DNA from: Chryseobacterium cucumeris
GTDB lineage: Bacteria; Bacteroidota; Bacteroidia; Flavobacteriales; Weeksellaceae
Direction of reading: 5' to 3'
Assembly (NCBI RefSeq): GCF_016775705.1
Contig: NZ_CP068760.1
Span: 620,001-684,000 of the forward strand
DNA length: 64,000 bases
Shown here: one piece after another, positions 5,026 through 62,878 of the stretch
Numbering within the stretch: the stretch's first letter is position 1
Layout of the letters: each line of letters starts with the position of its first letter
The notes under the pieces: generated by a model
What the model was told of the DNA's origin: nothing
Seen by the model: only the letters and a program-made list of their open reading frames with translations
The model's database searches: none
Program-made: the position numbers and the translations under genes

Positions 5026-5036
5026 GAACTTATGAG

Positions 5037-6305: not shown

Positions 6306-6306
6306 T

Positions 6307-6345: not shown

Positions 6346-6346
6346 T

Positions 6347-6679: not shown

Positions 6680-6880
6680 GTGTGTAAAAATATGCTGCAA
6701 AAATAGAAAATTTAATTGTGGCACAGAATCATCGCAGCTATTTAATTATTGAATAAAAGACTGCTTTTATATTTTAAAGCAATACAATATCACCCAAAAA
6801 GGTAATTGAATACCAATATTACAAATTATACATTTGAAATAAAATTAAGAGCTGAATTCACAAACCAAAAGTCAACAGAC

Positions 6881-8523: not shown

Positions 8524-8576
8524 TAATACAGATCATTTTTTATGAAATAAAGACCAAACTTCATGACACAAAAGAA

Positions 8577-8618
8577 AAAATGTCAGCGGGTTATTATCTG
8601 CTGACATTTATATTTTTA
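8577..8618 (+). terminator. Intrinsic terminator
   Basis: AAAATGTCAGC, a 12-base loop, GCTGACATTT, then TATATTTTT. It closes the 6881-8523 operon. Confidence 0.75.
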
Positions 8619-8783
8619 CAGAATAGTGTAATAATCTGTAAAATACAGAGCTAGCCTCTAACAAAGTTTTTCGAGCTCAAAAAACAATTATCATAAACGT
8701 TTAAAAATCAGAATTTTACTCTACAATACGAGGTTTTTATTTTATTGCTATATTTGAGAACTTAGAAACTGTCTAGAATTTTT

Positions 8784-45307: not shown

Positions 45308-48300
45308 ATGAAGAAAACTCTAGCCACTTTTGCCGTTTTTTTACTTCCTCTTTATTTTTCTGCCCAGGAAATCAATATTTCAGGAAATGTAAAATCAGAA
45401 AACGGTTCTAGTGTTTCCGGTGTGAACATCACCGACAAAAACACAGGAAAGACTGCTACTACAGATGAAAATGGTAATTTCACTATTTCTGCAAACCCAA
45501 AAGATATTCTTGAATTTTTTGCTCCTGATTTTTCCGTTTATACCGTTGAGGTTTCTTCCAAAAAACAGTATTCCGTTGTCTTAAAAAAGCAAAACGAAAA
45601 ACAGATTGAAGGTGTTGTGATTACCGCATTAGGTATTGCCAAAAAGAAGGAAAAAATCGGATATTCTACTCAGGAAGTGGGAACGAAACAGTTTGAAACC
45701 ATTACTACACCGAGTATCGGGAACTTATTTTCCGGACAGGTTGCTGGTCTGAATGTTTCCAATCCAACGGGAATGCAGCAGGCCCCACAGTTTACATTGA
45801 GAGGAAACTCCAATCTCGTTTTTGTCATTGATGGTGTGATTGTGGAAAAAGAGGTTTTCCAGAATTTAGACCCTAACAATATTGAAAACATCAACGTCCT
45901 GAAAGGTGCTACCGCTTCTGCTTTATATGGTTCAAGAGGTCGTTACGGAGCTGTTTTGATCACCACAAAAAATGCTAAAAAGAAAGGTTTCTCTGTAGAA
46001 TTTTCCCAGAACACCATGATTACGGCAGGGTTTACCAATCTTCCGAAAACTCAGACTGAATATGGTAACGGTTCCCATGGAAAATATGAATTCTGGGACG
46101 GAGCTGATGGCGGGGTGAATGACGGAGATATGATCTGGGGACCCAAATTCGTTCCCGGTTTACAGATTGCACAGTGGAACAGCCCTATCAGAGATAAAGT
46201 AACAGGGCAGGTCGTTCCGTGGTATGGAGCTGTAACAGGAACTCAGTATGATGATAAATCAAGGTATGAAAGAGTTCCGATTGACTGGAAGTACCACGAT
46301 AACTTAAATACTTTTTTAAAACCTGCAGTTATCAATAATAATAACTTTGCGATCAGCTACAGGAACAACAAAGACGTATACAGATTCTCGGGGAATTTCA
46401 TGAATTATGATGACAGGGTTCCGAATTCATACCTTCAGAAATACGGAATCAACTTCTCTTCTGAAAACCATCTTGGTGAGAAGTTAATCTTTGATACAAA
46501 ATTCAACTTCAACCAGGCCTTCACCCCTAATATTCCCAACTACGATTACAATCCAAGCGGACATATGTACACCATCCTGATCTGGATGGGAGGCGATGTA
46601 GACGGAAAGGCACTGAAAAATCACATGTGGATTCCCGGAAAGGAAGGAAGAGCACAGGCCAACTGGAACTATGCCTGGTACAACAACCCATGGTTCGGAG
46701 CTGAGTATTATAAAAATCAGAACAGAACCGATATTATCAATGCACAGACAGGCTTAGAGTATAAAGCGACACAGGATCTATCGGTAAAAGGGAAAATATC
46801 TCTTGTCGAAAACCATAGCAAAACGGAAATTCTGAGCCCTTATTCCTATTTCAATTATGATGCACCAAGAAGTGGTGGCTATATTTTGAAGGATAATAAA
46901 ACATGGAACCTCAATTATGATGTGTTGGCGACTTACAAGAAAAAGATATCTGAAAATTTTGATTTTACAATCAATGCGGGAGGTTCTGCTTTCTATTATA
47001 AAAACAACAACAATGAAAGGTCTACGGACGGATTAAAAATTCCTGAAGTGTATACTTTCGAAAACTCTATCGGAGCGCTGAAAAATTATACGTACCTGAA
47101 GGAAAAACTGATTTACAGTGCTTACTCTACCATTGATATTGGATTGTATAATGCTTTCTTCATCAATGTTTCCGGGCGTAATGACTGGTCTTCTACACTA
47201 CCTAAGGCCAACAGATCTTACTTCTATCCTTCTGCTTCCATCAGTGCGGTTATTTCCAACCTGGTAAAAATGCCGGAATCTATCAATATGTTGAAACTTT
47301 CTGCTTCATGGGCGAAAGTAGCGTATGATTTCCAGCCTTATTCCATCAGAAATTATTATCTGAACAATGGGGGAATCACATTCAATGGAAATCCTACTTA
47401 TTATTATCCAACCACTCTGAATGTAGAAAATTCTTTGAAACCGGAGCAGACAAAATCTTATGAATTAGGTTTAAGCGCAGGGTTCCTGAATAACAGAATT
47501 ACTTTAGACGCTACTTATTTCAGAACATTAGATTATAATAATATTCTCCAGTTCCCTGCTGCAGAATCATCAGGTTTCACTTCTCAATATGTAAACGGAA
47601 ATGAATATACAACCAAAGGATTTGAAGTTTCCCTTGGTTTAGTTCCGGTAAAAACTTCTGATTTCAGCTGGAAAACATTAATCAACTGGAGTACTTATGA
47701 ACAAAAGCTGACTTCCATTTATGATAATATGCCGAACTACAAAAATATTAAGCTAGGCGAAAGAATGGATAGCTATTACGACTATACATGGCAAAAGTCT
47801 CCGGATGGAAAAGTAATTCTTGATGCGAATACAGGAATGCCGACAAGAGCTAATAACCCAAGTAATCTGGGACATTTCAATCCTGACTGGACTTTCGGTT
47901 TCAACAACACATTCAAATATAAAAAATTCACTTTAAACATCGGAATTGACGGAAGCATCGGAGGTGTGATGAGATCCCAGGTTGTGGAAAAAATGTGGTG
48001 GGGAGGAAAACACCCTAATTCTGTAGCGTACAGAGATCTTGAATATGCAAATCCGGGAACGTATTATTTTGTACCTGATGGGGTTAACTACAATCCGGCA
48101 ACCGGAACCTATACTCCACACACAAAAGCTATCAGCTACCAGGACTGGTCGCAAAATTATCCCTACCGTGCAAGAGTAACACAGGACGAAAGCGAAGAGT
48201 TTGCTAACATTTTTGACAGAACTTTCGTCAAGCTTAGATCTGTAGTATTAGAATATGACTTCTCTTCATTACTCAACCCAAGAGGAATGGTGAAAGGTTT

Positions 48301-48448
48301 CACCGCCAATATTTCTGCTTACAATCTGGCGATGTGGAAAAAATCAAAAAACCTTTATTCTGATCCAGACTTCCAGACAAAAACAGACAATGATATTCAG
48401 GATCCATCCAGCAGATGGTTTGGAATCGGATTTAATCTTAAGTTTTAA
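45308..48448 (+). CDS. SusC/RagA-family TonB-dependent transporter (pair 2)
   Basis: A 1046-residue outer-membrane transporter. The signal peptide ends near LYFSAQ. A CarboxypepD_reg-like domain follows (INISGNVKSENGSSVSGVNI, about 20-100), then the plug (LFSGQVAGLNVSNPTGMQQ, NVLKGATASALYGSRGRYGAV) and a long barrel ending IGFNLKF. It is the first gene of a susC-susD-phospholipase C cluster, 20 bp before susD. Confidence 0.95.
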   Translation: MKKTLATFAVFLLPLYFSAQEINISGNVKSENGSSVSGVNITDKNTGKTATTDENGNFTISANPKDILEFFAPDFSVYTVEVSSKKQYSVVLKKQNEKQIEGVVITALGIAKKKEKIGYSTQEVGTKQFETITTPSIGNLFSGQVAGLNVSNPTGMQQAPQFTLRGNSNLVFVIDGVIVEKEVFQNLDPNNIENINVLKGATASALYGSRGRYGAVLITTKNAKKKGFSVEFSQNTMITAGFTNLPKTQTEYGNGSHGKYEFWDGADGGVNDGDMIWGPKFVPGLQIAQWNSPIRDKVTGQVVPWYGAVTGTQYDDKSRYERVPIDWKYHDNLNTFLKPAVINNNNFAISYRNNKDVYRFSGNFMNYDDRVPNSYLQKYGINFSSENHLGEKLIFDTKFNFNQAFTPNIPNYDYNPSGHMYTILIWMGGDVDGKALKNHMWIPGKEGRAQANWNYAWYNNPWFGAEYYKNQNRTDIINAQTGLEYKATQDLSVKGKISLVENHSKTEILSPYSYFNYDAPRSGGYILKDNKTWNLNYDVLATYKKKISENFDFTINAGGSAFYYKNNNNERSTDGLKIPEVYTFENSIGALKNYTYLKEKLIYSAYSTIDIGLYNAFFINVSGRNDWSSTLPKANRSYFYPSASISAVISNLVKMPESINMLKLSASWAKVAYDFQPYSIRNYYLNNGGITFNGNPTYYYPTTLNVENSLKPEQTKSYELGLSAGFLNNRITLDATYFRTLDYNNILQFPAAESSGFTSQYVNGNEYTTKGFEVSLGLVPVKTSDFSWKTLINWSTYEQKLTSIYDNMPNYKNIKLGERMDSYYDYTWQKSPDGKVILDANTGMPTRANNPSNLGHFNPDWTFGFNNTFKYKKFTLNIGIDGSIGGVMRSQVVEKMWWGGKHPNSVAYRDLEYANPGTYYFVPDGVNYNPATGTYTPHTKAISYQDWSQNYPYRARVTQDESEEFANIFDRTFVKLRSVVLEYDFSSLLNPRGMVKGFTANISAYNLAMWKKSKNLYSDPDFQTKTDNDIQDPSSRWFGIGFNLKF

Positions 48449-48468
48449 CTAAAAAGTACGTCAAGACA

Positions 48469-49989
48469 ATGAAAAATAATATAAACAAAGTGACAGAGCA
48501 AAAAGGTAAAACAGCAAAATGGCTGATGAAATCTTTATTTGCAGCCGGACTTCTGACATTAGCATCATGTGAATCTAACCTTGATACCATCAATGAAAAC
48601 CCTAATGACCAGGCCAGTATTGATCCCAAAAATCTATTGACTTACGTTGAAAAATATACTTTTCAGGTAAACGGGGACAATATGTATGCCTCCAGAATGA
48701 TGATTGGTACTGATGGTGAGAATTCATACCAGTATATGAAATGGAATGATACTTCTTTTGAAGTCTATACCAAAGGACTTCTGAACACTGGAAAAATGAT
48801 GCAGGAAGCTGAAAAAAGAGGAAACAAAAATTATCTGGCCATCGGAAAATTTTTGAGAGCGTATCATTTCTTCAATATCAGTTTAAAAGTTGGAAGTGCT
48901 CCTTATTCTGAAGCAGCAAAGGGTGAATCCGGCATTACCCAGCCTAAATATGATACACAGGAAGCTATCATGTCCGGAATTTTATCAGAATTAAAAGAAG
49001 CCAATGATCTTATTAATACCACCGATAAAATTGAAGGTGATATTGTCTACAACGGAGATGCTTTAAAGTGGAAAAAACTGATTAATTCATTCCGTCTGAA
49101 AATTCTGATCACTTTATCTAAAAAAACGACAGTAGGAAGTTATAATATAGCCGCAGAGTTTGCTTCTATTGCAGGAAGCCAGTCTCTCATGACCTCTATT
49201 GCAGATAACGGTGAACTTAATTTTGCTGATGCAGCAGACAGCAGATACACGATGTTTAACAACAGTGGATATGGTTCAAGTTTGTACATGGCTGATTATT
49301 TTATTAATATGTTCAAAGACAGGCATGATCCACGTTTGTTCACGTTTGCAGCACAGACTACAGGAGCAAAAGAAGCAGGAAAAGCCATCACAGACTATAC
49401 AGGATATAACGGCGGAAATCCTACTTCTCCGTATTCTGATAATGCAGCACTGATCACTGCAAAAAACATTTCCAAAGTAAACGATCGTTTTTATAAAGAC
49501 CCTACCAATGAACCTGCTTCTGTATTAAGTTATTCAGAACTTGAGTTTATTCTGGCTGAAGCTGCGGCCAGAGGATGGATTTCCGGATCTGCCAAAACAC
49601 ATTACAACAATGCTGTTAAGGCCAGTTTCAATTTTTATCAGACTTATGTAAAAAATCCGGGACAATATTTCTCAGGCTTTGATGTAAACCAATATCTTGC
49701 AACTCCTTTGGTAGTGTATAATGATGCTGATCCTTTACAGACACAGCTCGAAAAGATCATGACTCAAAAATACATGACGATGTTCCATCAAGCACAATGG
49801 ACTTCTTATTATGATTATCTGAGAACTGGCTATCCAAATTATCCTTTAAAAACAGGAGTTCCGGCGCCTTTCAGGTTCAGATATCCGCAGTCTGAATATA
49901 ATTACAACAGCAATAATTTAAAAGCTGCTTTAAACGCTCAGTACGGAGGAAATGATAATATCAACTCAAAACCCTGGTGGTTACAATAA
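48469..49989 (+). CDS. SusD-like outer-membrane lipoprotein (pair 2)
   Basis: A 506-residue lipoprotein (lipobox LASC, Cys33; an ATG 19 codons in, MKSLFAAGLLTLASC, would give a more usual signal). The domain is the SusD-like_2 type: NLDTINENPNDQASIDPKNL, AIGKFLRAYHFFNIS, SELEFILAEAAARGWISG and IMTQKYMTMFHQAQWTSYYDY are characteristic. It partners the SusC just upstream. A hairpin separates it from the phospholipase C gene. Confidence 0.93.
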   Translation: MKNNINKVTEQKGKTAKWLMKSLFAAGLLTLASCESNLDTINENPNDQASIDPKNLLTYVEKYTFQVNGDNMYASRMMIGTDGENSYQYMKWNDTSFEVYTKGLLNTGKMMQEAEKRGNKNYLAIGKFLRAYHFFNISLKVGSAPYSEAAKGESGITQPKYDTQEAIMSGILSELKEANDLINTTDKIEGDIVYNGDALKWKKLINSFRLKILITLSKKTTVGSYNIAAEFASIAGSQSLMTSIADNGELNFADAADSRYTMFNNSGYGSSLYMADYFINMFKDRHDPRLFTFAAQTTGAKEAGKAITDYTGYNGGNPTSPYSDNAALITAKNISKVNDRFYKDPTNEPASVLSYSELEFILAEAAARGWISGSAKTHYNNAVKASFNFYQTYVKNPGQYFSGFDVNQYLATPLVVYNDADPLQTQLEKIMTQKYMTMFHQAQWTSYYDYLRTGYPNYPLKTGVPAPFRFRYPQSEYNYNSNNLKAALNAQYGGNDNINSKPWWLQ

Positions 49990-50014
49990 AAATCTGATTA
50001 TTTTTATATAAAAA

Positions 50015-50060
50015 CAAAGAAACCGCAGGAAAATCCTATTAACTTGCGGTTTCTTTCTTA
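50015..50060 (+). terminator. Terminator or attenuator between susD pair 2 and phospholipase C
   Basis: AAAGAAACCGCA and TGCGGTTTCTTT (12 bp) flank an 18-base loop, followed by CTTATT. It ends only about 13 bases before the ATG of the enzyme gene, so it may act both as a terminator and on translation. Confidence 0.75.
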
Positions 50061-50072
50061 TTACGATTGAAC

Positions 50073-52418
50073 ATGAACAGAAGAGAATTTTTAGAAAAAT
50101 CAAGTCTTTTATTAGCGGGATTAGGAACGTCAGGAGTTCTGCATCCTTCCATTTTAAAAGCTTTAGCCATTGATCCGGCTGCCCAGTCTACATTTTATGA
50201 TGCAGAACATGTTGTGATCCTGATGCAGGAGAACCGTTCATTTGATCATGCTTTTGGCGCTCTTAAGGGAGTAAGGGGCTTTCTGGATAAAAGAGCTTTT
50301 GTAAAACAGGATGGACATTCCGTCTTTTTCCAAAAAAATGACGAAGGGAAATATGCTTCTCCCGCCCGCCTGGATTTAAGAAATACAAAATCTACATGGA
50401 TGAGCTCTTTGCCTCATTCATGGGCAGATCAGCAGAAAGCTTTGAACAAAGGTAAATTTGACCAATGGCTTCAGGCAAAAGCCTCAGGAAATAAAGATTA
50501 TAAAAATATTCCGCTTACGTTAGGATATTACAACCGCGAAGACCTTCCGTTTTATTATCAGCTGGCAGATGCATTTACCATATTCGACCAGTATTTCTGT
50601 TCTTCACTCACCGGAACAACTCCCAACAGGCTATTCCTTTGGTCCGGAACATTAAGGGAACAGCAAAACGGAAAAGTAAAAGCCAATGTTGTTAATGAAA
50701 ACATTGATTATGATAAAGCGAGGCAGGCAAAATGGAAAAGTTTCCCGGAAATATTAGAGCAGCAAAATGTTTCGTGGAGAATTTATCAGAATGAAATCAG
50801 TCTTCCAAAAGGAATGTCCGGAGAACAGGAAGCCTGGCTGAGTAATTTTACAGATAACCCGATTGAGTGGTTTTCAAAATTCAACGTTAAATTTTCAAAA
50901 GGATATTATCAGAATATTCCCAATATCATCGCCTATCTGAAGAAGGAGATTGAAAAAAATCCTGATCAGAAAGAAAGACTGGAAGCCATGCTGGCTGAAG
51001 TTCAGGAAGATCAGGTGAAATACCACCCTGACAATTATTCAAAACTTTCAAAAGAAGAAAAAAATCTTCATGAAAAAGCCTTTACCACTAATTCCAACGA
51101 TCCTGATTACTGGAAACTGGAAATTGGAAAGGATGAAAACGGAGAAAGGCTTGTTGTTCCGGAAGGTGATGTATTATTTCAGTTCCGTAAAGATGTGGAA
51201 GAGAAAAAGCTTCCGTTGGTTTCATGGCTGGTAGCTCCGGAACATTTTTCTGATCATCCGGGATCACCATGGTACGGAGCCTGGTATATTTCTGAAGTTC
51301 TGAATATTCTGACCAAAGATCCTGAAACCTGGAAGAAAACCATATTTATCATCAATTATGATGAGAATGACGGGTATTTTGATCACGTATTGCCTTTTGC
51401 CCCACCAGTGAATCCAAGCCAGCCCGTAGATATGAACGGAAAAGAAGGGGTGGAATATGTGGATAAAACTCAGGAATATATGAGCTCTCCTTCTTTGAAA
51501 AGCTATGAAAAAGTAGAAGGAACTGTCGGATTGGGTTACAGAGTCCCTATGATCATCGCTTCTCCCTGGACGAAAGGAGGTTTTGTCAATTCTGAAGTAT
51601 CGGATCACACGTCTGTCCTGCAGTTTTTGGAAAAATTCATTATGAAGAAATTCAAAAAGGATGTCCGTGTAGAAAATATCAGTGACTGGAGAAGAGCGAT
51701 ATGTGGAGATCTTACTTCCGCTTTCAATTCTTCCAGCGTGAAAGTTCCGAAAATGGATTATCTTGATCAGAAGGATTATGCTAAAACCATCAACGCAGCT
51801 AAAAATAAACCTGTCCCTAATTTGAAATGGTATTCTGAAGATGAACTTAAAGATAGCCTGCTTGACATTCAGGAAAGAGGCTTGAAACCATCCAATCCGC
51901 TGCCCTATCATTTCCATGTAAATCTGGAAGGAGACCATATAAAAATGACTAACCTGAAAGATAATGGGGTTCCGCTTTTGGTATATGACAGAACTCAATT
52001 CGACAATAATAATTATCATTTTTCATATGCTTTATATGAAAAGCAAACGCTATCCCATACTGTGCAGCCGGGAGCTTATGATTATGAAGTTTTCGGTCCC
52101 AATGGCTTTTTCAGGAAATTTAAGGGAAATAAAACTGCAGAAACAGAGGTGATCTTGACGAATATGACCTCAAAAAATCAGATTGAATTAATTATCAGAA
52201 ATCACAAAAAGAAAAATTTTTCCATCAGTCTGGAAGATCTTTATACAAGAAGCGAAAGAACAGTTTCTGTACAAAAAACGGAAGAAAAAATCATTATTGA
52301 TCTTGATAAATACAAAGGCTGGTATGATTTGAAGCTAAAATTAAACGATCATCTGTGGCACTTTGCCGGAAGAATAGAAACCGGAAAAGTTTCCGTTTCT
52401 GACCCGCATTGGGCCTAA
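50073..52418 (+). CDS. Phosphocholine-specific phospholipase C
   Basis: A 781-residue enzyme starting MNRREFLEKSSLLLAGLG, a twin-arginine signal (Arg3-Arg4), so it is exported folded. The phosphoesterase/AcpA-type core begins AEHVVILMQENRSFDHAFGA and includes FCSSLTGTTPNRLFLWSG, INYDENDGYFDHV and YRVPMIIASPWTKGG with SDHTSVLQFLEKF. The C-terminal two beta domains (about 570-781) match the DUF756 repeats of this family. It releases phosphocholine from phosphatidylcholine or sphingomyelin. ATG 50073 is preferred to a TTG two codons upstream. Confidence 0.94.
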   Translation: MNRREFLEKSSLLLAGLGTSGVLHPSILKALAIDPAAQSTFYDAEHVVILMQENRSFDHAFGALKGVRGFLDKRAFVKQDGHSVFFQKNDEGKYASPARLDLRNTKSTWMSSLPHSWADQQKALNKGKFDQWLQAKASGNKDYKNIPLTLGYYNREDLPFYYQLADAFTIFDQYFCSSLTGTTPNRLFLWSGTLREQQNGKVKANVVNENIDYDKARQAKWKSFPEILEQQNVSWRIYQNEISLPKGMSGEQEAWLSNFTDNPIEWFSKFNVKFSKGYYQNIPNIIAYLKKEIEKNPDQKERLEAMLAEVQEDQVKYHPDNYSKLSKEEKNLHEKAFTTNSNDPDYWKLEIGKDENGERLVVPEGDVLFQFRKDVEEKKLPLVSWLVAPEHFSDHPGSPWYGAWYISEVLNILTKDPETWKKTIFIINYDENDGYFDHVLPFAPPVNPSQPVDMNGKEGVEYVDKTQEYMSSPSLKSYEKVEGTVGLGYRVPMIIASPWTKGGFVNSEVSDHTSVLQFLEKFIMKKFKKDVRVENISDWRRAICGDLTSAFNSSSVKVPKMDYLDQKDYAKTINAAKNKPVPNLKWYSEDELKDSLLDIQERGLKPSNPLPYHFHVNLEGDHIKMTNLKDNGVPLLVYDRTQFDNNNYHFSYALYEKQTLSHTVQPGAYDYEVFGPNGFFRKFKGNKTAETEVILTNMTSKNQIELIIRNHKKKNFSISLEDLYTRSERTVSVQKTEEKIIIDLDKYKGWYDLKLKLNDHLWHFAGRIETGKVSVSDPHWA

Positions 52419-52435
52419 AAACGCCTATAATATTG

Positions 52436-52471
52436 ATAAAATACTGCACAAAATTGTGCAGTATTTTTTTT
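52436..52471 (+). terminator. Intrinsic terminator after phospholipase C
   Basis: AAAATACTGCAC and GTGCAGTATTTT pair around AAAATT, followed by a run of T. Confidence 0.85.
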
Positions 52472-52591
52472 GAATTATTTCATCTTATAATGCATTACAT
52501 ATGATAAATAAGCAATTATAAAAAATATGTGGTATATTTTTTTTAAAACATATTGAATTTTGTTATCTTCACTTTACTAATTAACAGTGTC

Positions 52592-53170
52592 ATGAAAAAA
52601 CTAAATTTAACTATTGCAGCGTCTTTATTTGCGTTTGCTCTATGCGGGAATCTGAGTGCCCAAGATCTCGCTACAGATAACCATACGGTTACCATTTCTA
52701 TTCCCGAAGTTGCATTGGTAGATATTGAGCCATCAGCAACCAAAAATATTACCCTTGGATTTACAGCTCCTACTGAAGCCGGAAATCCTATTCTTCCATC
52801 TGCGGCCAACACTACGTTGTGGCTTAATTATTCTTCTATTAAATCTGTGGCAGATCCTACCCGTAACGTAAGCGTAAAAATGAACGCTATCATTCCTGGA
52901 GTAGATCTTAATGTAACGGCGGCGGCGGCCACCGGAGCAGGAGCAGGCACATTGGGAACTTCCGCAGGACTGCTTACATTAACTGGTACTGACCAGACTA
53001 TTATTTCCGGTATTGGAAGTGCTTATACAGGAAATGGAGCTAATAACGGTCATAATCTTACCTATGCACTCGCTGCAGGAAGTGGTCCTGGAGGGGTAGC
53101 CGCGTATGCAGATTTACAGGCTACAGCTACTGTTGCTGCTACCGTTACTTATACAATATCAGACAATTAG
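52592..53170 (+). CDS. Putative surface-fibre subunit A, first gene of a chaperone-usher-like operon
   Basis: A 192-residue secreted protein starting MKKLNLTIAASLFAFALCGN, cleaved near LSAQ. The mature part is small, Cys-free and beta-rich: VTISIPEVALVDIEPSAT, FTAPTEAGNP, TLGTSAGLLTLTGT, IISGIGSAYTGNGANNGH, and a final alternating strand AATVTYTISDN. The paralogue at 56818-57351 shares all these blocks. Size, Gly/Ala/Thr richness and position before chaperone- and usher-like genes suggest an assembled extracellular subunit. This is inference; no named family is recognised. Confidence 0.8.
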   Translation: MKKLNLTIAASLFAFALCGNLSAQDLATDNHTVTISIPEVALVDIEPSATKNITLGFTAPTEAGNPILPSAANTTLWLNYSSIKSVADPTRNVSVKMNAIIPGVDLNVTAAAATGAGAGTLGTSAGLLTLTGTDQTIISGIGSAYTGNGANNGHNLTYALAAGSGPGGVAAYADLQATATVAATVTYTISDN

Positions 53171-53201
53171 AATTTTAATTAAAATTCTATTTTACGTTTC
53201 A

Positions 53202-53245
53202 AAAACAAGAAGAAATTTGTATCCAGTTTCTTCCTTGTTTTGTAT
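53202..53245 (+). terminator. Internal hairpin (attenuator) after subunit A
   Basis: AAAACAAGAAGAAA and TTTCTTCCTTGTTTT pair with one bulge around an 11-base loop, followed by GTATTATT. It lies between the first subunit and the chaperone-like gene, where partial termination would give more subunit than assembly machinery. Confidence 0.6.
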
Positions 53246-53274
53246 TATTAATGTTTTAACTCCAAACTTATATC

Positions 53275-54075
53275 ATGATAAAGCGTATCCTTATCCTGAT
53301 TACCCTGATTTTGCAGTTCAGCTTTTTACATGCCGGTATTGTGATTCTCAACGGACTTACGCATTCTTACAAAATAGAAAATGGAAAGGTTTATAAAGGA
53401 AAAGTTGCCATTGAAAACACGGGCAGCAATCCTCAAAGTGTAAAAATATTTTTACAGGATTATACCTACCATGCGGACGGAACGATCAATTATACAGCAT
53501 TACGTACCAATAAACGAAGTAACGGAGAGTGGCTGAAACTCAACACTAATCTTGTTACCCTTAAAGGTAAAGAAAAGACTGAGATCTTCTATGAAATAAC
53601 CATTCCCAATCAGGCAATGGATCCGGGAAGCTATTGGAGTGTGATTATTGTAGAGCCGGTAGAAGAGATAAAACCCAGCGACGGTAAGCCGGGAGTAAGT
53701 ATCACTTCTGTTATACGATATGCCATTCAGGTAATTACAGATTTTGAAACAGAAAAGGCCCAACCGGACCTTAAGTTTGAAAGTGTAAAGGTGGAAAAAC
53801 AGGAAGGAAAACAAACGGCAAAGATAGCAATAGCCAATAATGGTAATCTTTACTGTAAACCGACTGCTTCCATAGAAATCTATAACCGAAAAACGGGTGA
53901 GAAGGTGGGAACTTATTCAAGTTTAACAATGGGGCTGTTACCCGACACCTCCAAAACATTTTACATTGACATTAGTAAAGTACCCCCTGATAAATACAAA
54001 GCAGCTATTATAGCCACCGATGAAGAAGAGAATGCTTTTGCACTCAATGTGGAATTAGAAGTAAAGAATGATTAG
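53275..54075 (+). CDS. Periplasmic chaperone-like protein, two Ig-like domains
   Basis: A 266-residue exported protein (signal peptide ending near FSFLHA). Domain 1 (about 19-150) runs YKGKVAIENTGSNPQSVKIF, LKLNTNLVTLKGKEKTEIFY and IPNQAMDPGSYWSVIIVEP, the strand order and P/G pattern of pilus-chaperone or DUF916 N-domains. Domain 2 (about 160-266) runs PDLKFESVKVEKQ, KIAIANNGNLYCKPTASIEI and VPPDKYKAAIIATDEEENAF and resembles DUF3324. Unlike Gram-positive WxL-interacting proteins it has no C-terminal membrane helix, so it is probably soluble in the periplasm. It overlaps the usher-like gene by 8 bp. Confidence 0.78.
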   Translation: MIKRILILITLILQFSFLHAGIVILNGLTHSYKIENGKVYKGKVAIENTGSNPQSVKIFLQDYTYHADGTINYTALRTNKRSNGEWLKLNTNLVTLKGKEKTEIFYEITIPNQAMDPGSYWSVIIVEPVEEIKPSDGKPGVSITSVIRYAIQVITDFETEKAQPDLKFESVKVEKQEGKQTAKIAIANNGNLYCKPTASIEIYNRKTGEKVGTYSSLTMGLLPDTSKTFYIDISKVPPDKYKAAIIATDEEENAFALNVELEVKND

Positions 54076-56821
54076 AACTTGGACTTTATTTATTATCATA
54101 TCACTATTCCCGGTATTTATTTTTTCCCAAGAGCAACCCAACAGGTTGATCAGTAAAAAAGATAGTTTATTGCCGGGAATGTCTACTTCTATTCCCTTCA
54201 CATTCGAAAATAATTCGAAGGAAACCAAAACATATGATATTTCAGTTGTCACATCAAGTTCCTCAATCAATCCTATTCTGGCAAAAGGAGAATTTCAGAT
54301 TCTTCCGTATGAAACATCAGTATATCTCGTTCCTTTACGTATCGGAACAGAAACAGGACAGGGCACTTATTCTGTAACTCTGAATATTATGGACCGTAGT
54401 AATGGAACAACATTTACAAAAAATTCAAAAATCCTAGTTTCCGGAAACAGAAAGCTTCTGGTTACTGCGTTGAATACCCCTGAATTTGTAAGGGCAGGAG
54501 AAACAATCCGTGCTTCTTTCCTTTTGAAAAATAATGGTAATGTTACAGAAAGCATTGTTCTTGAAAGTAAAAATGCTGTAGTTGATAACGAATCATCCCT
54601 TGTTCTTGCACCCAATGAATCAAAAATTATTACGATTCACAAAGTGACAAGCCCTGAACTTGCTCAAAATGAATTTCAAAACCTAAATCTTTCGGTACAC
54701 CCGAAGAGTCGTCCCAAAGAAATTCAGGATGTCTACGCAACTACTCAGGTAATTTCAGTAAAGCCATCTGAAAACGATATTTATCACAGACTTCCTGTTG
54801 CCCTCTCCCTATCTTTTATCGGAATGCAGAATATGGGAGTTTATCACGATGGTTTTCAGGGTGAAATCTATGGTAAAGGAACACTGGACAAGAATAATAA
54901 AAACCAGATTGAATTTAGAGCAGTTACTCACAATCCTGTAGAACTCAATACATTTACTCAATATGAAGAATATTTTGTGAATTATAAACGGAACAATCTT
55001 TCTATTCATTTAGGTGATAAAACCTACTCTTCATCCTATCTTACAGAATTTGCAAGATATGGGCGCGGGGCAGAAATTCGCTATGATTTTAATAAAATAA
55101 GCTTTGGGGGATTCTACAATCATCCCAGATTCTTCAGAGATATTAAAGATGAATTTAATATGTATTCAGCTTTTAAAATCCGGAAAGAGTCCGAAATTTC
55201 TGTGGGCTATCTCTACAAAACCCCGAGGAAGGAAGAAATCAGATTTGGAGATGTAAGACTTGATTCAGATGCTCATCTATCATATGCTAAAGGAAAATTC
55301 AAAGTGTCAAAAAATATCAATCTTTCCGGAGAACTGGCATATAGTACAACGAAGAACACTGATGGAACAGCTTATTTATTACAGGCAGAAGCTGTATTTA
55401 AAAAATTAAACGGAAGTCTGATGTATATGAGAGCCAGCCCTGATTTTGCCGGATATTTCACCAATACCAATACCTTTAACGGTAATATTTATTATAATAT
55501 CACCAAAAAAATCAGCGTATTTGCCAATTATATGCAGGATGCCAAAAATTTCCAGAGAGATACATTGCTACTGGCCGCCCCGTACAGAAAGTATTTTCAA
55601 TATGGAGTGCAATACAAATATATTCCTACTGGTTTCATCATCCTGAATAATGGATATCAAACTTATAAAGACCGTTTGGAACCAAAGCAGTTTGATTACT
55701 ATGAACGTTACTTCAAGGTGAGTATTAATCAGCAAATAGGAGTTTTCCAGGTCAATCTGGATGGACAATTCGGTAAAACAGATAATTATATGACTGGATT
55801 TAGTGGAAATTCCAGTTTTTATTCTGCGAATCTTTCATTTCAAAAATTCAGTACCTCATTTAACATCTTCGGAAGTTATGCTATAAGCTCAAGATATCAG
55901 CTTCAAAACCAGAGAAATTTTTATTACGGAGCGAGAATCTTCAGCAAGTTTTCTGATAAGACCAGCTTAAGTATCTTTTATCAGAACAATTACATGCCAG
56001 AGGAATATTTTAAAGACAGAAATCTGTTTGAGCTTCTTTTTCATCAACAGCTGTTTCAGGGGAACGAACTTGATCTTTCCGGAAGGTATTCACTACAAAG
56101 AGGGGAAATCGGAGATAAAGATTTTATATTTTCCATGCGCTATACCTGGCGCCCCAACGTTCCTGTACAAAAAATTGCCGAGTATATTTCACTGTCCGGA
56201 AATGTCAGCAGCTTAGGATTAAAAAAAACAGAAGGAATAAGACTAATACTTGGAAGTTATCTGTCTGTTACGGATAAGGATGGAAATTATATGTTTAAAA
56301 ATGTTATTCCCGGCAACTATTTTCTTGAAATAGACCGTTCCACGACAGAAATCAATGATATTCCAACCCAGACTTTTCCTGCAGCGCTTTCATTACTCAA
56401 TAAGGAAAATACATTTAATTTCGGATTAACAACAGCGGCGACTGTTCAGGGGCATGTTAAGTTCCTGGAAACCGGAGATAAAGATCAAAATGATTTTGGC
56501 CAGCTGCCATCTGCTAAAGGAAAGAAGAAAAAAGAAAGTATTATTGTGGAAGCTACCAATAACGATCAGACTTACCGTAAAGTATGCAACATAGGAGAAG
56601 ATTTTGATTTCACCTATCTGCGTCCGGGAGACTGGACTGTGAAAGTTTACCGCAATGGATTGGACAAGCGTTATAAAATTTCAACGGACAAATTTATATT
56701 TACTTTACAGCCTTCGGAAACAAAGAAAATAACAATCAATGTTGTCAAACAGCAGATAGAGATCAAATATCAAAAGGAATCCTTGAAAGTAGGATATAAT
56801 GAAATAAAAAAGAAGAGATGA
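54068..56821 (+). CDS. Usher-like outer-membrane barrel protein
   Basis: A 917-residue exported protein (signal peptide ending near FIFSQ). Residues about 25-230 hold two Ig/CARDB-like domains (SIPFTFENNSKETKTYDISV; RASFLLKNNGNVTESIVLES). About 235-700 is a long series of alternating, aromatic-rich strands typical of a large barrel (INLSGELAYSTTKN, KISVFANYMQDAKNF, QYKYIPTGFIILNNGYQTY). The C-terminus carries two small carboxypeptidase-regulatory or CNA-B-like domains (SVTDKDGNYMFKNVIPGNYF; FDFTYLRPGDWTVKVYRNG). The plan equals that of FimD-type ushers: N-domain, barrel, two C-domains. Primary sequence similarity to FimD is not evident. Confidence 0.8.
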   Translation: MIRTWTLFIIISLFPVFIFSQEQPNRLISKKDSLLPGMSTSIPFTFENNSKETKTYDISVVTSSSSINPILAKGEFQILPYETSVYLVPLRIGTETGQGTYSVTLNIMDRSNGTTFTKNSKILVSGNRKLLVTALNTPEFVRAGETIRASFLLKNNGNVTESIVLESKNAVVDNESSLVLAPNESKIITIHKVTSPELAQNEFQNLNLSVHPKSRPKEIQDVYATTQVISVKPSENDIYHRLPVALSLSFIGMQNMGVYHDGFQGEIYGKGTLDKNNKNQIEFRAVTHNPVELNTFTQYEEYFVNYKRNNLSIHLGDKTYSSSYLTEFARYGRGAEIRYDFNKISFGGFYNHPRFFRDIKDEFNMYSAFKIRKESEISVGYLYKTPRKEEIRFGDVRLDSDAHLSYAKGKFKVSKNINLSGELAYSTTKNTDGTAYLLQAEAVFKKLNGSLMYMRASPDFAGYFTNTNTFNGNIYYNITKKISVFANYMQDAKNFQRDTLLLAAPYRKYFQYGVQYKYIPTGFIILNNGYQTYKDRLEPKQFDYYERYFKVSINQQIGVFQVNLDGQFGKTDNYMTGFSGNSSFYSANLSFQKFSTSFNIFGSYAISSRYQLQNQRNFYYGARIFSKFSDKTSLSIFYQNNYMPEEYFKDRNLFELLFHQQLFQGNELDLSGRYSLQRGEIGDKDFIFSMRYTWRPNVPVQKIAEYISLSGNVSSLGLKKTEGIRLILGSYLSVTDKDGNYMFKNVIPGNYFLEIDRSTTEINDIPTQTFPAALSLLNKENTFNFGLTTAATVQGHVKFLETGDKDQNDFGQLPSAKGKKKKESIIVEATNNDQTYRKVCNIGEDFDFTYLRPGDWTVKVYRNGLDKRYKISTDKFIFTLQPSETKKITINVVKQQIEIKYQKESLKVGYNEIKKKR

Positions 56822-57351
56822 TTCTGATCCGTACCCTATTATTAATTGCATTTTGTGTTGTATCCGGGCCAATCTATTCCCAGACCGCAAATACTACTGT
56901 TAGTCTTACATTGCCTGTAGTAACTTTAATGGACATTGAGCCTACAGGAAGTATTGTGTTAAATTTTACAGCTCCTACAGAAGCTGGAAATGCTGTTGGA
57001 GCACCGACTCCCAATACATCAAAGTGGATAAACTATACATCTGCTATTGCTTCCGGAGGACTTACAAAAAGAATTACAGCATCTGTGAATCAAGTTATTG
57101 CCGGAGTCAATATAAGGCTGCAGGCAGCTGCGGCTTCCGGAGCAGGAGGCGGAACATTGGGAACATCTGCAGGACAGGTTACCCTTACTACCACTCCTAC
57201 TACCATTATTAGCGGTATTGGTGGAGCATATACTGGAAACGGGGCCAATAATGGTCATGGACTTACCATATCGCTTTCCACCAACACGTATGCCAATTTA
57301 CAGGCACAAGCCAATACAGCAATTGTCATCACCTACACCATCACAGAATAA
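56818..57351 (+). CDS. Putative surface-fibre subunit B, paralogue of subunit A
   Basis: A 177-residue exported protein (signal peptide ending near GPIYSQ). It overlaps the usher-like gene by 4 bp (ATGA). It shares with subunit A the blocks PVVTLMDIEPTGSI, NFTAPTEAGNA, TLGTSAGQVTLT, IISGIGGAYTGNGANNGHGL and a closing ITYTITE strand. One is likely a duplicate that became a minor, tip or anchor subunit. No named family recognised. Confidence 0.8.
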   Translation: MILIRTLLLIAFCVVSGPIYSQTANTTVSLTLPVVTLMDIEPTGSIVLNFTAPTEAGNAVGAPTPNTSKWINYTSAIASGGLTKRITASVNQVIAGVNIRLQAAAASGAGGGTLGTSAGQVTLTTTPTTIISGIGGAYTGNGANNGHGLTISLSTNTYANLQAQANTAIVITYTITE

Positions 57352-57360
57352 AATTAAAAA

Positions 57361-57930
57361 ATGAAAATAGAAAGCCCGTTTTTAAAAAAACAGTTCTTAA
57401 AAAAATATCTATATATTATTGCTTTAATAGCAGGTGCTTGCCTTAAAGGGCAAACTATAAACATTGCAGGAACGAGCTGGACTGCCAGTGTACCTGCCAT
57501 TACGGAGGCAGGAAGTAACTATATCGGGACCTATGAGAATCCTTCTCAGTTAACACTATCAGGCAATTTACCAGGATCTTTTCTGAATGTTCTTTCAGCC
57601 TCAGGTGCTAAAATATCCATGCAGCTTGCTCCAACGTCCTGGAACAGCTCTTTGAAACTCTATGCGAAAAGAAGTGGAGGTACTACTAAGATAAATGGAC
57701 TTTGCCTGGGATGCACCGCAACAATTACTGGTGGAACGGCCAATTATATAGAAATACTTCAAGCCAGTGCCGTAACGCTATCAACTATTACTTTTACAGG
57801 ATTATTAGGAATCAGCAATAGTGTAGATTACTCAGCTATTAGTGTACAATTAGAGATTAGTGGCGTTTCTGTAACAATTCCTGCGGCGGCTTATAGTACT
57901 CAGGTAGTTTTTACAATTGGAGCCAATTAA
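57361..57930 (+). CDS. Third small secreted protein of the operon (possible tip or minor subunit)
   Basis: A 189-residue protein with a basic N-terminus and hydrophobic segment (YLYIIALIAGACLKGQ). The mature part is beta-rich with a CLGC pair in the middle, and it ends TQVVFTIGAN, a final alternating strand like the two subunits. It is otherwise unlike them. It starts 9 bp after subunit B. By analogy with pili it could be a tip adhesin or terminator subunit; this is a guess from position. Confidence 0.75.
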   Translation: MKIESPFLKKQFLKKYLYIIALIAGACLKGQTINIAGTSWTASVPAITEAGSNYIGTYENPSQLTLSGNLPGSFLNVLSASGAKISMQLAPTSWNSSLKLYAKRSGGTTKINGLCLGCTATITGGTANYIEILQASAVTLSTITFTGLLGISNSVDYSAISVQLEISGVSVTIPAAAYSTQVVFTIGAN

Positions 57931-58008
57931 ACTCCAAAGCCAATCCATATCCAACTTATCATAATTAATTGAACAATCCATTTAAAGATATATTCAGTCA
58001 ATTTGTAT

Positions 58009-58056
58009 ATAAAAAAACAATCCTTTTCAAAATCAGAAAAGAATTGTTTTTTTTAG
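58009..58056. terminator. Bidirectional terminator between convergent operons
   Basis: AAAACAATCCTTTTC and GAAAAGAATTGTTTT pair with one mismatch; A- and T-runs flank it. It ends both the usher-like operon and the third susCD operon. Confidence 0.8.
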
Positions 58057-58069
58057 TATGTAAATTTAA

Positions 58070-59965
58070 TTAATGTTTGGCCCACCAAAGAGGAGTCAGT
58101 ACAGCATCCGTACCACCAAGTAATTGCACAGCTTTATCATATCCAGACTGATCAGTATTTCTGAAAGTACTTGGATATCTTAATCTCTGAGGGAAGTTCT
58201 GAATAGAATTCGTCATATAGTTCCCTGAGCTCAGATTAGGAAGGTTGGGCAATGGAGCTTCAATGGCAGGGTTTTCAAAAAATGGCAGCCCAAGTCTTCT
58301 CTGATCATTCCAGGATTCTAACGGTAACCAAGGCATATTGGCAATATATTTCTGGGTAATAATCTTTGTCAGTTTATCATTCTTTACCGATCCGTTCTTA
58401 TAAATGGTATTCACAGGATATTTAATTTCAACAGAAACCAAGTTCCCGGTTACAGGATCTTTATATTTCATGGTATGGCTTGCTCCCGGTTCTGTAATAT
58501 GACTATAAGAAACAGAAGTACCGTCACGGTTATAATCCGTTGAAGCAATATATTGACCATAGAATTGTGAAACTCCATTATAAACAAAACTTTCCTGAAT
58601 TCCTTTATTATATGCAGCTTCATCACTCATTGGAACTGTCCAGCCTTTCAATGCAGCTTCTGCCAGAAGGAAATAGGTTTCCCAGCTTGCAAAAAATATT
58701 CTTGCATTCTTACTTTCCCTGTACTGCTTACCTAAAGCCGGCATACATCCTACTACATTTCTCAAGCCGTTTCTCTGTCCTTTTACGCCCCAGTTTCCAA
58801 TGGTATAGGCGTTCCAGGTATTTACGGTATTTACTGTTATTTTAGAATTGTCTTCAAACGTAAGATCTCCGTGATTGGTAGTTGCCTGATTGGTATACGT
58901 GGGATACAATGAGTAAACCGGGCTTGTAAGATCCCCCGGAATATAGAATGTTTTATAGGCTCTCGGATCGATTTTATTAGGTAATCCGTCCAGCCAGTAT
59001 CCTGCACTTGGGTCGTTAGTCATTGTAGTGAACTGTTGATCATATTTTATACCAATATAATCAGATGCTTTTACCTGTGTGTGTTGAGCTGCTGGTAATT
59101 GGTCTGTAGAATTTACTCCTCCCAGGCCAATGTATAAATTATTAAGGGTTGCTGATAAAATCTGAGAGTTCCATTCTCTGGACATTACACCTGTTAGCGC
59201 ATCCCATCCCGGTTTTTCAGCAACTTTAAAATTATCTGCACTTGTAGCGATAAACATATTTGAATTTGCCGCTGCTTCAAATTCTGTTTTTGCTTTTGAA
59301 GGATCTACTTCGGCGATTCTCATGGCAATTCTCATCCTCATAGAGTTGGCATATTTGACCCATTGACTCCAATTAAACCCATACACCATATCATAGGCAT
59401 TTGCATTGGATGGTACTCCCTGGGTTGTGTCCATTTTGGCGACTGCATCTTTCAATTCTTCCAAAATAAAATAATACACTTCTTTTTCAGAATTAAAAGT
59501 AGGATTCGTTCCCTGAAAAGCGTGAATAGGTTGAGGTCCGAAATTATCCGAAAATTCACTCATTAAATAAGCTCTCCAGATTCTGGAAACCTGAATGACA
59601 TTATCATAATAAGGTTTTCCCTGCCCGGCCGCCTTTTTTTCATTAGCCAACTGAATGGCCGCATTCGCATTATTCAGCCAATCTGAAATGTATTTCCAGT
59701 ATTCGGAAGTCCAGGAATCATCGTAAGTTCCACCTGCAATTCCGGTTGTCAAATGCTGTCTTGCTGCCGTTTTCCAGTATAAAACAAAAACACGTTCTGC
59801 AATATTAGGATCCTGCTGGGCACCGAGAATTGAGTTATTTAATAAATATTCGGGTTCTGCCTTATTAGCGTCTACGGCAAACGGGTTATTATTAATGTCT
59901 TCAAAATCATTGCATGAAGTACATAGTAAACCAATCGTAAAAAATGATAAGATATATTTTTTCAT
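58070..59965 (-). CDS. SusD-like outer-membrane lipoprotein (pair 3)
   Basis: A 631-residue lipoprotein (lipobox LCTSC, Cys18), longer than usual, of the SusD-like_2 type. DFEDINNNPFAVDANKAEPE, ISDWLNNANAAIQLAN, SWETYFLLAEAALKGWTVPM and KIITQKYIANMPWLPLESWND are characteristic. It ends with a conserved RLRYPSTFRN segment. Its ligand is unknown. It is the second gene after susC, 15 bp apart. Confidence 0.93.
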   Translation of the reverse strand: MKKYILSFFTIGLLCTSCNDFEDINNNPFAVDANKAEPEYLLNNSILGAQQDPNIAERVFVLYWKTAARQHLTTGIAGGTYDDSWTSEYWKYISDWLNNANAAIQLANEKKAAGQGKPYYDNVIQVSRIWRAYLMSEFSDNFGPQPIHAFQGTNPTFNSEKEVYYFILEELKDAVAKMDTTQGVPSNANAYDMVYGFNWSQWVKYANSMRMRIAMRIAEVDPSKAKTEFEAAANSNMFIATSADNFKVAEKPGWDALTGVMSREWNSQILSATLNNLYIGLGGVNSTDQLPAAQHTQVKASDYIGIKYDQQFTTMTNDPSAGYWLDGLPNKIDPRAYKTFYIPGDLTSPVYSLYPTYTNQATTNHGDLTFEDNSKITVNTVNTWNAYTIGNWGVKGQRNGLRNVVGCMPALGKQYRESKNARIFFASWETYFLLAEAALKGWTVPMSDEAAYNKGIQESFVYNGVSQFYGQYIASTDYNRDGTSVSYSHITEPGASHTMKYKDPVTGNLVSVEIKYPVNTIYKNGSVKNDKLTKIITQKYIANMPWLPLESWNDQRRLGLPFFENPAIEAPLPNLPNLSSGNYMTNSIQNFPQRLRYPSTFRNTDQSGYDKAVQLLGGTDAVLTPLWWAKH

Positions 59966-59980
59966 TGTTTCAGTTGTTAG

Positions 59981-62878
59981 TTAAAAGCCTAAAGTGATTG
60001 TAAATAAGTAAGATCTTGAAGTAGGAAAAGCAAGGTTTTCAAATCCTGTAGCATTAGAATTAATTGCGAATACAGATTCCGGGTCGATTCCTTTAGCTTT
60101 ACTATAGATCATCCATACGTTATTGGCCGTAAAAGCTACTTTAGCACTCTGTAAGGCTAGTTTTTGGAAAATACTTTTAGGAAAATTATAAGTCAGCTGA
60201 ATATTTCTTAAACGAATATTGGTAGCATCATAAATGTTTTGCTCTGTAATTCCTAAGTTTCCGGATGTTACAGCTCCCCAATAATCCTGTTGAGTAATTT
60301 CTTTTGTATTTGCTGTATAACCGCCATTTCCCTCCACTACGGCATCCAAAATCATATTATCACGTTTTCCTCCGGGCGCGGTGTCTGCAGCAAGTCCATT
60401 CGCTTGTAATGCAGCTTGTGTTGCAGAGAAAAATTTACCTCCGATTCTTCCGTCAATTAAAAATGAAAGTCCGATATTTTTATAAACAAAGCTGTTTGTA
60501 AAGCCAAACAAAGCTCTCGGGGTTTGATCTCCTAAATAATATTGATCAGGTGTTGCCTGCGGTAATCCGTTTTGATCCACAATCAATTTTCCGTAATAAG
60601 GGCTGCTGGTATCTTCTACTCTTAAGAATTTTGTTCCGTAAATGGCTCCGTAAGGTTTTCCTACTTCTGCGAAGAAAGCAACGTTATCAAAACCTGATAA
60701 AGGATATTTTGAAACAATCCCGTCAATTTTATCGATGTTGCTTTTTAACGTTGAAAAATTGGAATTAACATTCCATACAAAGCTTTCCTTCTTAAAGATA
60801 TCCGTATTCATTACGAATTCAAACCCTTTGTTATGCAACCCTCCTGAATTAATCATCATTCTTTCATATCCGGAAAGTGGATTTATCGGAATGGCTATAA
60901 GCTGATCGGTGGCATTATTATTAAAATAACTTACATCCAGAGACACTCTGTCAAAAAACTTCATGTCTGCTCCAACTTCAAAAGTTTTAAGCTTTTCCGC
61001 ATGTAAATCCGGATTAAAAAGTATCTTGTTCCTTGCAAGTACAATATGTCCGTTTGGATCAGTGGAAGCAATATATGTATTGTACAAGCTGTGAGGAGGT
61101 AAAGAGTTACCCACAATTGCGTAGGCCGCGCGAAGCTTAGCAAATGTTAAGGCATTTAAAGTAGTACCATTTAATTTTTTCAGCATATCTGTCAAAACTA
61201 ATGAAGTACTCACAGAAGAATAAAAATAAGACCTGTTATTTATATTCAAAGTAGAAGACCAATCATTTCTTGCCGTAGCATTCAGAAACCAATATCCGTC
61301 ATAATTAATTTCAGCAGCAGCAAATACTGAATTAATTTTTTTCCACATATCAACTTCGGTTGTTGTAACAGAAGCAAGATCACTCGTATTAGACGTACTG
61401 AAAACATTGGCAATAACGAGATTTTGTGTGGAAAAATATAATGCTTTATCCCTGCTTTCCATCATCTGTCCATAAACAGAAAGCGATCCTCCCCATTTAC
61501 CAACAATATCATCTTTTTTAGCATTAAGACTTATGATATAATTATTTTCATAAAACTTTTCCTGACCGGTAGAGTAAGAATTATTACGTCTGGATCCCGT
61601 CCAAACTCTCGCATCCGTATTTAAAGAATAGAAATCCGTTCCTAATCTTACATCTGCGCTCAGCCAGTTATTAAATTGATATTTAAGATAACCGTTTAAT
61701 AAAAACCTGTCTTTTTTATCAGCGTTCAATGCATTATAAGCAGTCCAATAGGGATTAATTCCATTAGAGGTTATCCAGCGCGATGTCACTCCATTTTGCA
61801 TCTGCCCCTCACGATAATCTCTTATATCAACATTTTGAGGCATCAGAAGGATTGCTGGGTAGTAATTCCCGTCACCTTGCCCTGCAGAGGGTCTGTTTGT
61901 ACCTTTAACACTCATATATTGAGCTTTCACCTCAGTAGTCCATCTTTTATTAGCCCCAAAATTAGAATTCATTTTCGCCATAAAATTGAACCTCTCATAT
62001 TTTGAGTTCGGAATCTGGCTATTACTGCTTAAATAATTAGCAGAAGTGTACAAGCTCGATCCTTCACCAATGTTCTCCTGAAAGCTCAATGTATGCTGAG
62101 AATTAGTTCCTGTCTTAAAAAAGTTTTTTAAGTTATCGTGGACTGTCATATTTGAACCTTCAAAAGTCGGTCCCCAGGAAGTTGTATTGTCGGTCCCTTG
62201 AGGATTGACCAAACCATTACTTCCTTGTGCGAAACTATGCTGCAAATCAGGTTTCATAAAAATATTTTCAAAACCTAAGCTTGTAGAATATGTAATTCCT
62301 AATCCCCCTTTTCTTTTACCCGTTTTTGTAGTAATCAAAATAACACCGTTTCCACCTCTGGAGCCATAAAGAGCAGAAGCAGCACCACCTTTCAGAACAG
62401 AAAGACTTTCAATGTCGTCCGGATTGATATCACTTAGACCATTCCCCATATCAAGATCCGGATTCCAGAAATCGTTATTAGAATCTTTTCCATTCTGCTT
62501 AGCCTTTGATCCTAAGCTATTACTTAACGGAACTCCATCTACCACAATAAGAGGCTGATTATCTCCTGTAAAAGAATTAAACCCCCGCAGGTTAATTTTG
62601 GAGGAAGAACCTGGTCCAAAACTTCCTTTAATCACTTGTAACCCGGCAACTTTTCCTGCTAATGCATTGGTAACATTATTTTCTTTGGCGTCGACAAGGG
62701 TTTGTCCTTTCACATCCTGGAAAGAATATCCCAGCGCTTTTTTTTCTTTTTTTACACCATAAGCTGTAACAACTATTTCGTCAATCTTTGACGCTTTAGT
62801 TGAATCACTTTGTGCATACAATCCACCGAAAAAGAATAAGGATTGGAGCAGCCCAACCTTTAAAATGGTTTTCTTCAT
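59981..62878 (-). CDS. SusC/RagA-family TonB-dependent transporter (pair 3)
   Basis: A 965-residue transporter. The signal peptide ends at GGLYAQ. The TonB-box-like SKIDEIVVTAYGVKKEKKAL comes at once, so the CarboxypepD_reg domain is missing. The plug shows NALAGKVAGLQVIKGSFGPG and SVLKGGAASALYGSRGGNGV, and the barrel ends SYLFTITLGF. No enzyme gene is attached, so the substrate cannot be guessed. The 11-bp repeats found before the other two susC genes are not seen here. Confidence 0.94.
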   Translation of the reverse strand: MKKTILKVGLLQSLFFFGGLYAQSDSTKASKIDEIVVTAYGVKKEKKALGYSFQDVKGQTLVDAKENNVTNALAGKVAGLQVIKGSFGPGSSSKINLRGFNSFTGDNQPLIVVDGVPLSNSLGSKAKQNGKDSNNDFWNPDLDMGNGLSDINPDDIESLSVLKGGAASALYGSRGGNGVILITTKTGKRKGGLGITYSTSLGFENIFMKPDLQHSFAQGSNGLVNPQGTDNTTSWGPTFEGSNMTVHDNLKNFFKTGTNSQHTLSFQENIGEGSSLYTSANYLSSNSQIPNSKYERFNFMAKMNSNFGANKRWTTEVKAQYMSVKGTNRPSAGQGDGNYYPAILLMPQNVDIRDYREGQMQNGVTSRWITSNGINPYWTAYNALNADKKDRFLLNGYLKYQFNNWLSADVRLGTDFYSLNTDARVWTGSRRNNSYSTGQEKFYENNYIISLNAKKDDIVGKWGGSLSVYGQMMESRDKALYFSTQNLVIANVFSTSNTSDLASVTTTEVDMWKKINSVFAAAEINYDGYWFLNATARNDWSSTLNINNRSYFYSSVSTSLVLTDMLKKLNGTTLNALTFAKLRAAYAIVGNSLPPHSLYNTYIASTDPNGHIVLARNKILFNPDLHAEKLKTFEVGADMKFFDRVSLDVSYFNNNATDQLIAIPINPLSGYERMMINSGGLHNKGFEFVMNTDIFKKESFVWNVNSNFSTLKSNIDKIDGIVSKYPLSGFDNVAFFAEVGKPYGAIYGTKFLRVEDTSSPYYGKLIVDQNGLPQATPDQYYLGDQTPRALFGFTNSFVYKNIGLSFLIDGRIGGKFFSATQAALQANGLAADTAPGGKRDNMILDAVVEGNGGYTANTKEITQQDYWGAVTSGNLGITEQNIYDATNIRLRNIQLTYNFPKSIFQKLALQSAKVAFTANNVWMIYSKAKGIDPESVFAINSNATGFENLAFPTSRSYLFTITLGF

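Follow-up and report, generated by a model that had tools for sequence, protein, structure and literature searches.

We analysed a window of 64,000 nucleotides from the genome of Chryseobacterium cucumeris (NZ_CP068760.1, positions 620,001 to 684,000; the host genome is one contig of 4.81 Mb), in which five adjacent genes, P1 to P5, probably encode a chaperone-usher-like fibre pathway with a WxLIP-type chaperone. All five proteins are predicted to be secreted. This reading is favoured by gene content, predicted folds, gene spacing, a conserved hairpin and two sister operons taken together. The initial annotation had likewise seen a possible surface-fibre operon resembling chaperone-usher fimbriae, and had described it as lacking a recognised family.

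P2 and the WxLIP family

The operon is not family-less, because P2 is, by sequence, a homologue of WxLIP, with its DUF916-DUF3324 domain pair. P2 matched PF11797 (WxLIP_HBD, DUF3324) above the Pfam cut-off (E = 7.1e-9) and PF06030 (WxLIP_PGBD, DUF916) just under it (E = 1.2e-4); at E <= 0.01, WxLIP_HBD was found in 8 and WxLIP_PGBD in 4 of 14 aligned P2 relatives. A 14-sequence P2 profile recovered solved Enterococcus faecium WxLIP structures from the PDB over both domains (9i25_C and 9i1y_A, E 5-6e-12; 5.2e-12 for 9i25_C). Comparison with eight Bacillota WxLIP sequences in hhalign gave 97.4% (E = 1e-11), against 0.2% for a reversed control. The same P2 profile matched no FimC or PapD structure in the PDB at E values up to 10, and P2 did not match PapD_N at E <= 5.

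In contrast to the Bacillota proteins as described, P2 and 13 aligned relatives stop shortly beyond the second domain, leaving, as judged from the alignment, no room for a C-terminal membrane helix. This ending fits a periplasmic protein, which P2 would then be. Classical chaperone-usher chaperones fill a strand gap in the pilin. A similar completion is predicted for WxLIP: the AlphaFold2 complexes reported by Hassan et al. 2023 (PMC10599100) show a strand of a WxLIP hairpin lying parallel to one in WxL and closing a gap in the WxL sandwich. The portions of that article available to this analysis draw no parallel between the two kinds of strand filling. A WxL protein and WxLIP are both present in PDB entry 9i25. 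Separately, a Klebsiella pneumoniae plasmid record (CP069367.1) contains a stretch 72.8% identical to Enterococcus WxLIP, possibly from a mixed sample.

The proposed usher and its subunits

The AlphaFold2 model of P3 (predicted local distance difference test, pLDDT, 83; predicted template modelling score, pTM, 0.55) places two N-terminal immunoglobulin (Ig)-like domains before a large barrel, followed by two C-terminal beta-sandwich domains. The C-terminal domains gave CarboxypepD_reg-like matches in 23 of 30 P3 relatives at E <= 0.001. When the model was compared with the PDB using Foldseek, the ten best-ranked chains were all FimD or PapC ushers (E 1.1e-13 to 2.2e-10), with alignments spanning 747-804 columns, although the superposition is loose and concerns a predicted structure. 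An usher-like barrel of 22-24 strands with a plug had been anticipated; a large usher-like barrel is indeed predicted, but with 26 strands, and the longest loop between them (about 15 residues) leaves no plug-sized insertion.

At the level of sequence, neither P3 nor its 30 relatives matched PF00577 at E <= 0.001, and hhalign of P3 against six E. coli ushers gave 0.5% in local and 2.1% in global mode. We therefore rejected P3 as a PF00577 member. The lack of a FimC or FimD sequence signature noted in the initial annotation thus holds for both P2 and P3 across Pfam, PDB profile and hhalign searches. One P3 relative (locus L016, 6135-9212) appears by eye to start like a lipoprotein (FSAC) and is longer, at 1025 amino acids.

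The initial Met of P1 was omitted from searches and modelling, which puts model residue 1 at the second position of the full protein. Chaperone-usher subunits made up 45 of the 50 listed VIA-align rows for the predicted P1 model, with modest Z scores. Of these rows, 31 align only from model residue 37-40 onward; residues 24-37, which were assigned no strand, form an N-terminal extension that may serve as a donor strand. No WxL structure appeared among the 50 listed rows, an absence that excludes nothing. P4 is 49% identical to P1, bearing out the earlier description of a paralogous subunit. P5 gave no Pfam family with support, and no fimbrillin family was among the Pfam matches of P1 to P5 at E <= 5.

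A first profile comparison that included signal peptides had suggested links of P1 with WxL (73%), of P1 with E. coli pilins (43%) and of P5 with P4 (92%); these links were dropped because the values collapsed to 1.8% or less once signal peptides were removed, with reversed controls reaching 4.1%. Other early values between P1 or P4 and WxL (31% and 9%) were also dropped. The mature sequences of P1 and P4 scored below 2% in hhalign against eight WxL sequences, and PF13731 (WxL) had no match genome-wide at E values up to 10, so neither protein was retained as a WxL protein.

Operon conservation and related operons

The tight spacing reported initially was confirmed, P2 and P3 overlapping by 8 base pairs and P3 and P4 by 4, with 9 base pairs separating P4 from P5 (Table 1). 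Median spacings in relatives are the same: -8 (n = 76), -4 (n = 75) and +9 (n = 69). The only long gap lies between P1 and P2 (median 98 nucleotides, n = 71), and it holds a hairpin conserved in relatives. In 71 of 72 such gaps the best hairpin was stronger than the average for ten mononucleotide-shuffled versions. Among 26 distinct gaps the inner helix was 93.6% paired; its covariation score of 0.228 was higher than in all six slid controls (maximum 0.135) and was reached by 5 of 500 shuffles. Two results weigh against the hairpin: cells changed on both sides numbered 10, within the 6-14 of the slid controls, and the outer helix was just 62.2% paired. Rfam gave nothing at gathering cut-offs across window positions 50000-60000, and promoter-like sites numbered 8, fewer than in shuffled sequence (19.4). 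By allowing more P1 transcript, a hairpin in this place would fit P1 being the major subunit.

Table 1. Coordinates of the operon, its predicted elements and the sister operons
Feature	Position	Strand	Description
P1	52592-53170	+	192 amino acids; secreted pilin-like subunit, probably the major subunit
P1 N-terminal extension	52664..52705	+	Model residues 24-37; candidate donor strand
Hairpin in P1-P2 gap	53202..53241	+	Conserved in relatives
P2	53275-54075	+	266 amino acids; WxLIP homologue without C-terminal membrane helix; proposed periplasmic chaperone
P3	54068-56821	+	917 amino acids; proposed usher
P3 N-terminal Ig-like domains (two)	54164..54757	+	About residues 33-230; model strands
P3 26-strand barrel	54782..56155	+	About residues 239-696; model strands; VIA-align range 238-699
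P3 C-terminal beta-sandwich domains (two)	56159..56749	+	About residues 698-894; model strands
P4	56818-57351	+	177 amino acids; second pilin-like subunit, P1 paralogue
P5	57361-57930	+	189 amino acids; third secreted protein, proposed tip partner of P4
Operon B (L117)	G000:C1:2752500-2764500, 1414-10100		Second superfamily operon
Operon C (L118)	G000:C1:3262000-3274000, 1987-8815	minus	Third superfamily operon

We evaluated conservation in 80 loci kept from 109 confirmed P3 relatives in named genomes, using a locus query led by a distant P3 so that relatives from outside Chryseobacterium were not crowded out. The five-gene order sought elsewhere on the initial annotation's suggestion was kept, with strand, in 72 of the 80 loci (hand count), including three in which a contig end cuts P1 (L019, L021 and L022). 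Among the remaining eight, a single fused reading frame covers both P4 and P5 in L024, L027 and L066 (from Chryseobacterium taiwanense, C. tagetis and Arundinibacter roseus), P1 is absent at a contig end in L020 and L041, with P2 of L020 also interrupted, and a gene is interrupted in L023, L092 and L096. The order also persists in a genome of another family with different neighbours, and in one whose P3 is only about 25% identical.

In the window, SusC/SusD-like gene pairs, recognised by eye, flank the operon region on both sides (45308-49989 and 58070-62878). In one further genome of the genus Chryseobacterium (L017), a 122-residue frame (about 6494-6697) matching the C-terminal part of P3 is all that remains; upstream of it, at 3726-6071, lies a gene judged by eye to resemble that at window 50067-52418. 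Given this arrangement, that genome may have lost the operon from the corresponding position.

The P2 profile found two further superfamily chaperone genes in the host genome, each within an operon of its own. Operon B encodes five tandem pilins of 180-181 residues, a chaperone matching WxLIP_PGBD above cut-off (E = 1.2e-7), a 934-residue usher-like barrel protein and a 477-residue protein. The last is akin to the pilins (33% over 134 residues, E = 8e-10) and, by analogy, appears adhesin-like, built as two-domain adhesins are. Operon C encodes a regulator-like gene, a small protein, a pilin, a chaperone, a 342-residue protein and a 931-residue usher-like protein. Window profiles reached the B and C chaperones (3e-20 and 4.8e-18), the B and C usher-like proteins (1.4e-5 and 1.3e-8) and the B pilins (1e-4; best shuffled 0.15). 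The C pilin, missed by the P1 profile, matched a B pilin (6e-10). Compared as a group, the B/C-type pilins gave 90.3% against the P1 family, against about 1% with either WxL or E. coli pilins. These sister operons make a chaperone-usher-like mechanism more likely.

Searched at E <= 1e-6, 43 of 296 Bacteroidota genomes hold superfamily chaperones and 34 hold usher-like matches, many weaker ones spanning the C-terminal domains only. Of 50 chaperone loci, 24 (hand count; 18 genomes) carry an usher-like gene in the same orientation, either next to the chaperone gene or roughly one gene away. More restrictive searches found WxLIP_HBD in 6 of the 296 genomes (3 over cut-off) and P3 itself in 5 of 395 genomes of the class, one a fragment. 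Classical ushers scoring over the curated PF00577 cut-off occurred in none of 198 Bacteroidota genomes sampled, with one weak match.

A homologous set occurs beyond this phylum. Plasmid 2 of Deinococcus deserti (L018, NC_012529.1, 7393-11780) encodes, in the same order, a small protein, a WxLIP, a barrel-type protein and a small protein. Its WxLIP is 31% identical to P2 (E = 1e-27), and profiles built without Deinococcus found its P2 (3.7e-40), its P3 (6.5e-12) and one subunit (8.8e-5; best shuffled 0.11), missing the other subunit. A distant surface-fibre system remains the best reading, as first suggested, but it is not confined to Bacteroidota. The D. deserti P2 homologue is annotated as FimB/Mfa2 family, and a weak P2-like match lies in the actinomycete Nonomuraea gerenzanensis (L115, 6001-6567; 21% identity, E = 0.01).

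Proposed mechanism and relation to known systems

These data allow us to propose a model of fibre assembly. Soluble P2 would hold secreted P1, P4 and probably P5 in the periplasm, lending each a missing beta strand as predicted for WxLIP and WxL. As the usher, P3 would take the chaperone-subunit pair at its N-terminal Ig-like domains, pass the subunit across the outer membrane through its wide barrel and hold the growing fibre end with its two C-terminal domains. The N-terminal extension of each arriving subunit would displace the chaperone strand. In this model P1 serves as the major subunit and P4 and P5 form the tip; we counted the P4-P5 fusions of three relatives in favour of a fibre, with P5 the proposed tip partner of P4. 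The pathway would thus work like a chaperone-usher system, while failing that family's sequence membership and two defining features of WxL clusters.

Given that P2 is a WxLIP, the operon could instead specify a Gram-negative WxL display platform, in which P2 holds WxL-like P1 and P4 as a static surface adhesive complex, P3 is an outer-membrane anchor and no polymer forms. The order of P1, P2 and P4 would agree with Bacillota loci, where a WxL gene precedes WxLIP and, at one locus, a second WxL gene follows. We consider this unlikely, as P1 and P4 lose their WxL link on removal of the signal peptides and lack a PF13731 match, P2 has no membrane helix, P3 is usher-like in Foldseek and operon B carries five tandem pilins. 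Less likely still, and improbable in our view, is that P3 represents a generic outer-membrane barrel similar to MtrB, LptD or a porin, with all five proteins contributing to another kind of surface complex or assisting secretion. Ushers account for the ten best Foldseek chains, aligned over 747-804 columns, and such a barrel leaves the pilin-like subunits and operon B unexplained.

P1 to P3 gave no direct sequence match to E. coli pilins, chaperones or ushers. The one weak PF00577 match among the 198 Bacteroidota genomes (G175; E = 3.3e-4 on the protein, under cut-off) is a 1010-residue frame adjoining a superfamily chaperone. Aligned together with a second divergent usher-like protein, it scores 41.9 against E. 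coli ushers across 251 columns, whereas none of 14 shuffles exceeded 25.7. These two proteins tie to the window usher family through their C-terminal domains (92.4%), and they alone carry the signal; the main group of usher-like proteins, which includes those of the window and of operons B and C, gives 0.7% against E. coli ushers. The pooled chaperone superfamily aligned with E. coli chaperones at 40.2% probability over 189 co-linear columns (score 33.9; maximum of 17.3 in 39 shuffles), against 1.9% over 69 columns for a natural control, the P3 Ig pair, and 0.5% in hhalign for window-type P2 alone. That Ig pair matched the pooled chaperones at 67% over 73 columns; short Ig-like matches are therefore not specific. 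Because the bridge needs divergent or pooled relatives, it hints at remote superfamily kinship with classical chaperone-usher systems, not at membership.

A broader and more tentative idea, which we regard as possible although the odds are against it, is that the WxL/WxLIP surface proteins of Gram-positive bacteria and the chaperone-usher pili of Gram-negative bacteria form branches of a single donor-strand superfamily, of which the Bacteroidota and Deinococcota operons, pairing a WxLIP chaperone with an usher-type barrel, would be a living link. If the fibre-pathway reading of the operon is right, Bacteroidota and Deinococcus share a widespread fibre pathway that has no name yet, and WxLIP, whose described roles are in wall and host binding, may fundamentally act as a chaperone of subunits. 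Searches of the open-access literature, mostly at the level of abstracts and including passages of PMC9772566 and PMC12537917 (subscription journals and preprints lay outside the search), turned up no account of this operon and none linking WxLIP with chaperone-usher systems.

Among known systems, type V (FimA/Mfa1) pili share the phylum Bacteroidota and the surface fibres predicted here, and one of 14 P2 relatives matches PF08842 (Mfa2, E = 1.7e-4); they differ in that P1 to P5 lack a fimbrillin family match. The type V pathway uses lipoprotein precursors and is not known to use an usher. Bacillota WxL/WxLIP clusters resemble the operon in the homology of P2 over both WxLIP domains and in their WxL, WxLIP order, which recalls P1 and P2; here, in contrast, P2 has no membrane helix, no WxL domain was found and a large outer-membrane-type barrel is added. 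From classical chaperone-usher systems (FimA/FimC/FimD/FimH; PF00345, PF00577) the operon departs in its WxLIP as proposed chaperone, in the missing Pfam or direct profile matches of P2 and P3 to chaperone or usher, and in the strand number and plugless build predicted for P3. It is like them in the pilin-like model of P1, in the predicted P3 layout of N-terminal domain, large barrel and two C-terminal domains, and in the succession of subunit, chaperone, usher and further subunits found in the fim operon, supporting the resemblance in gene content and order that was first noted.
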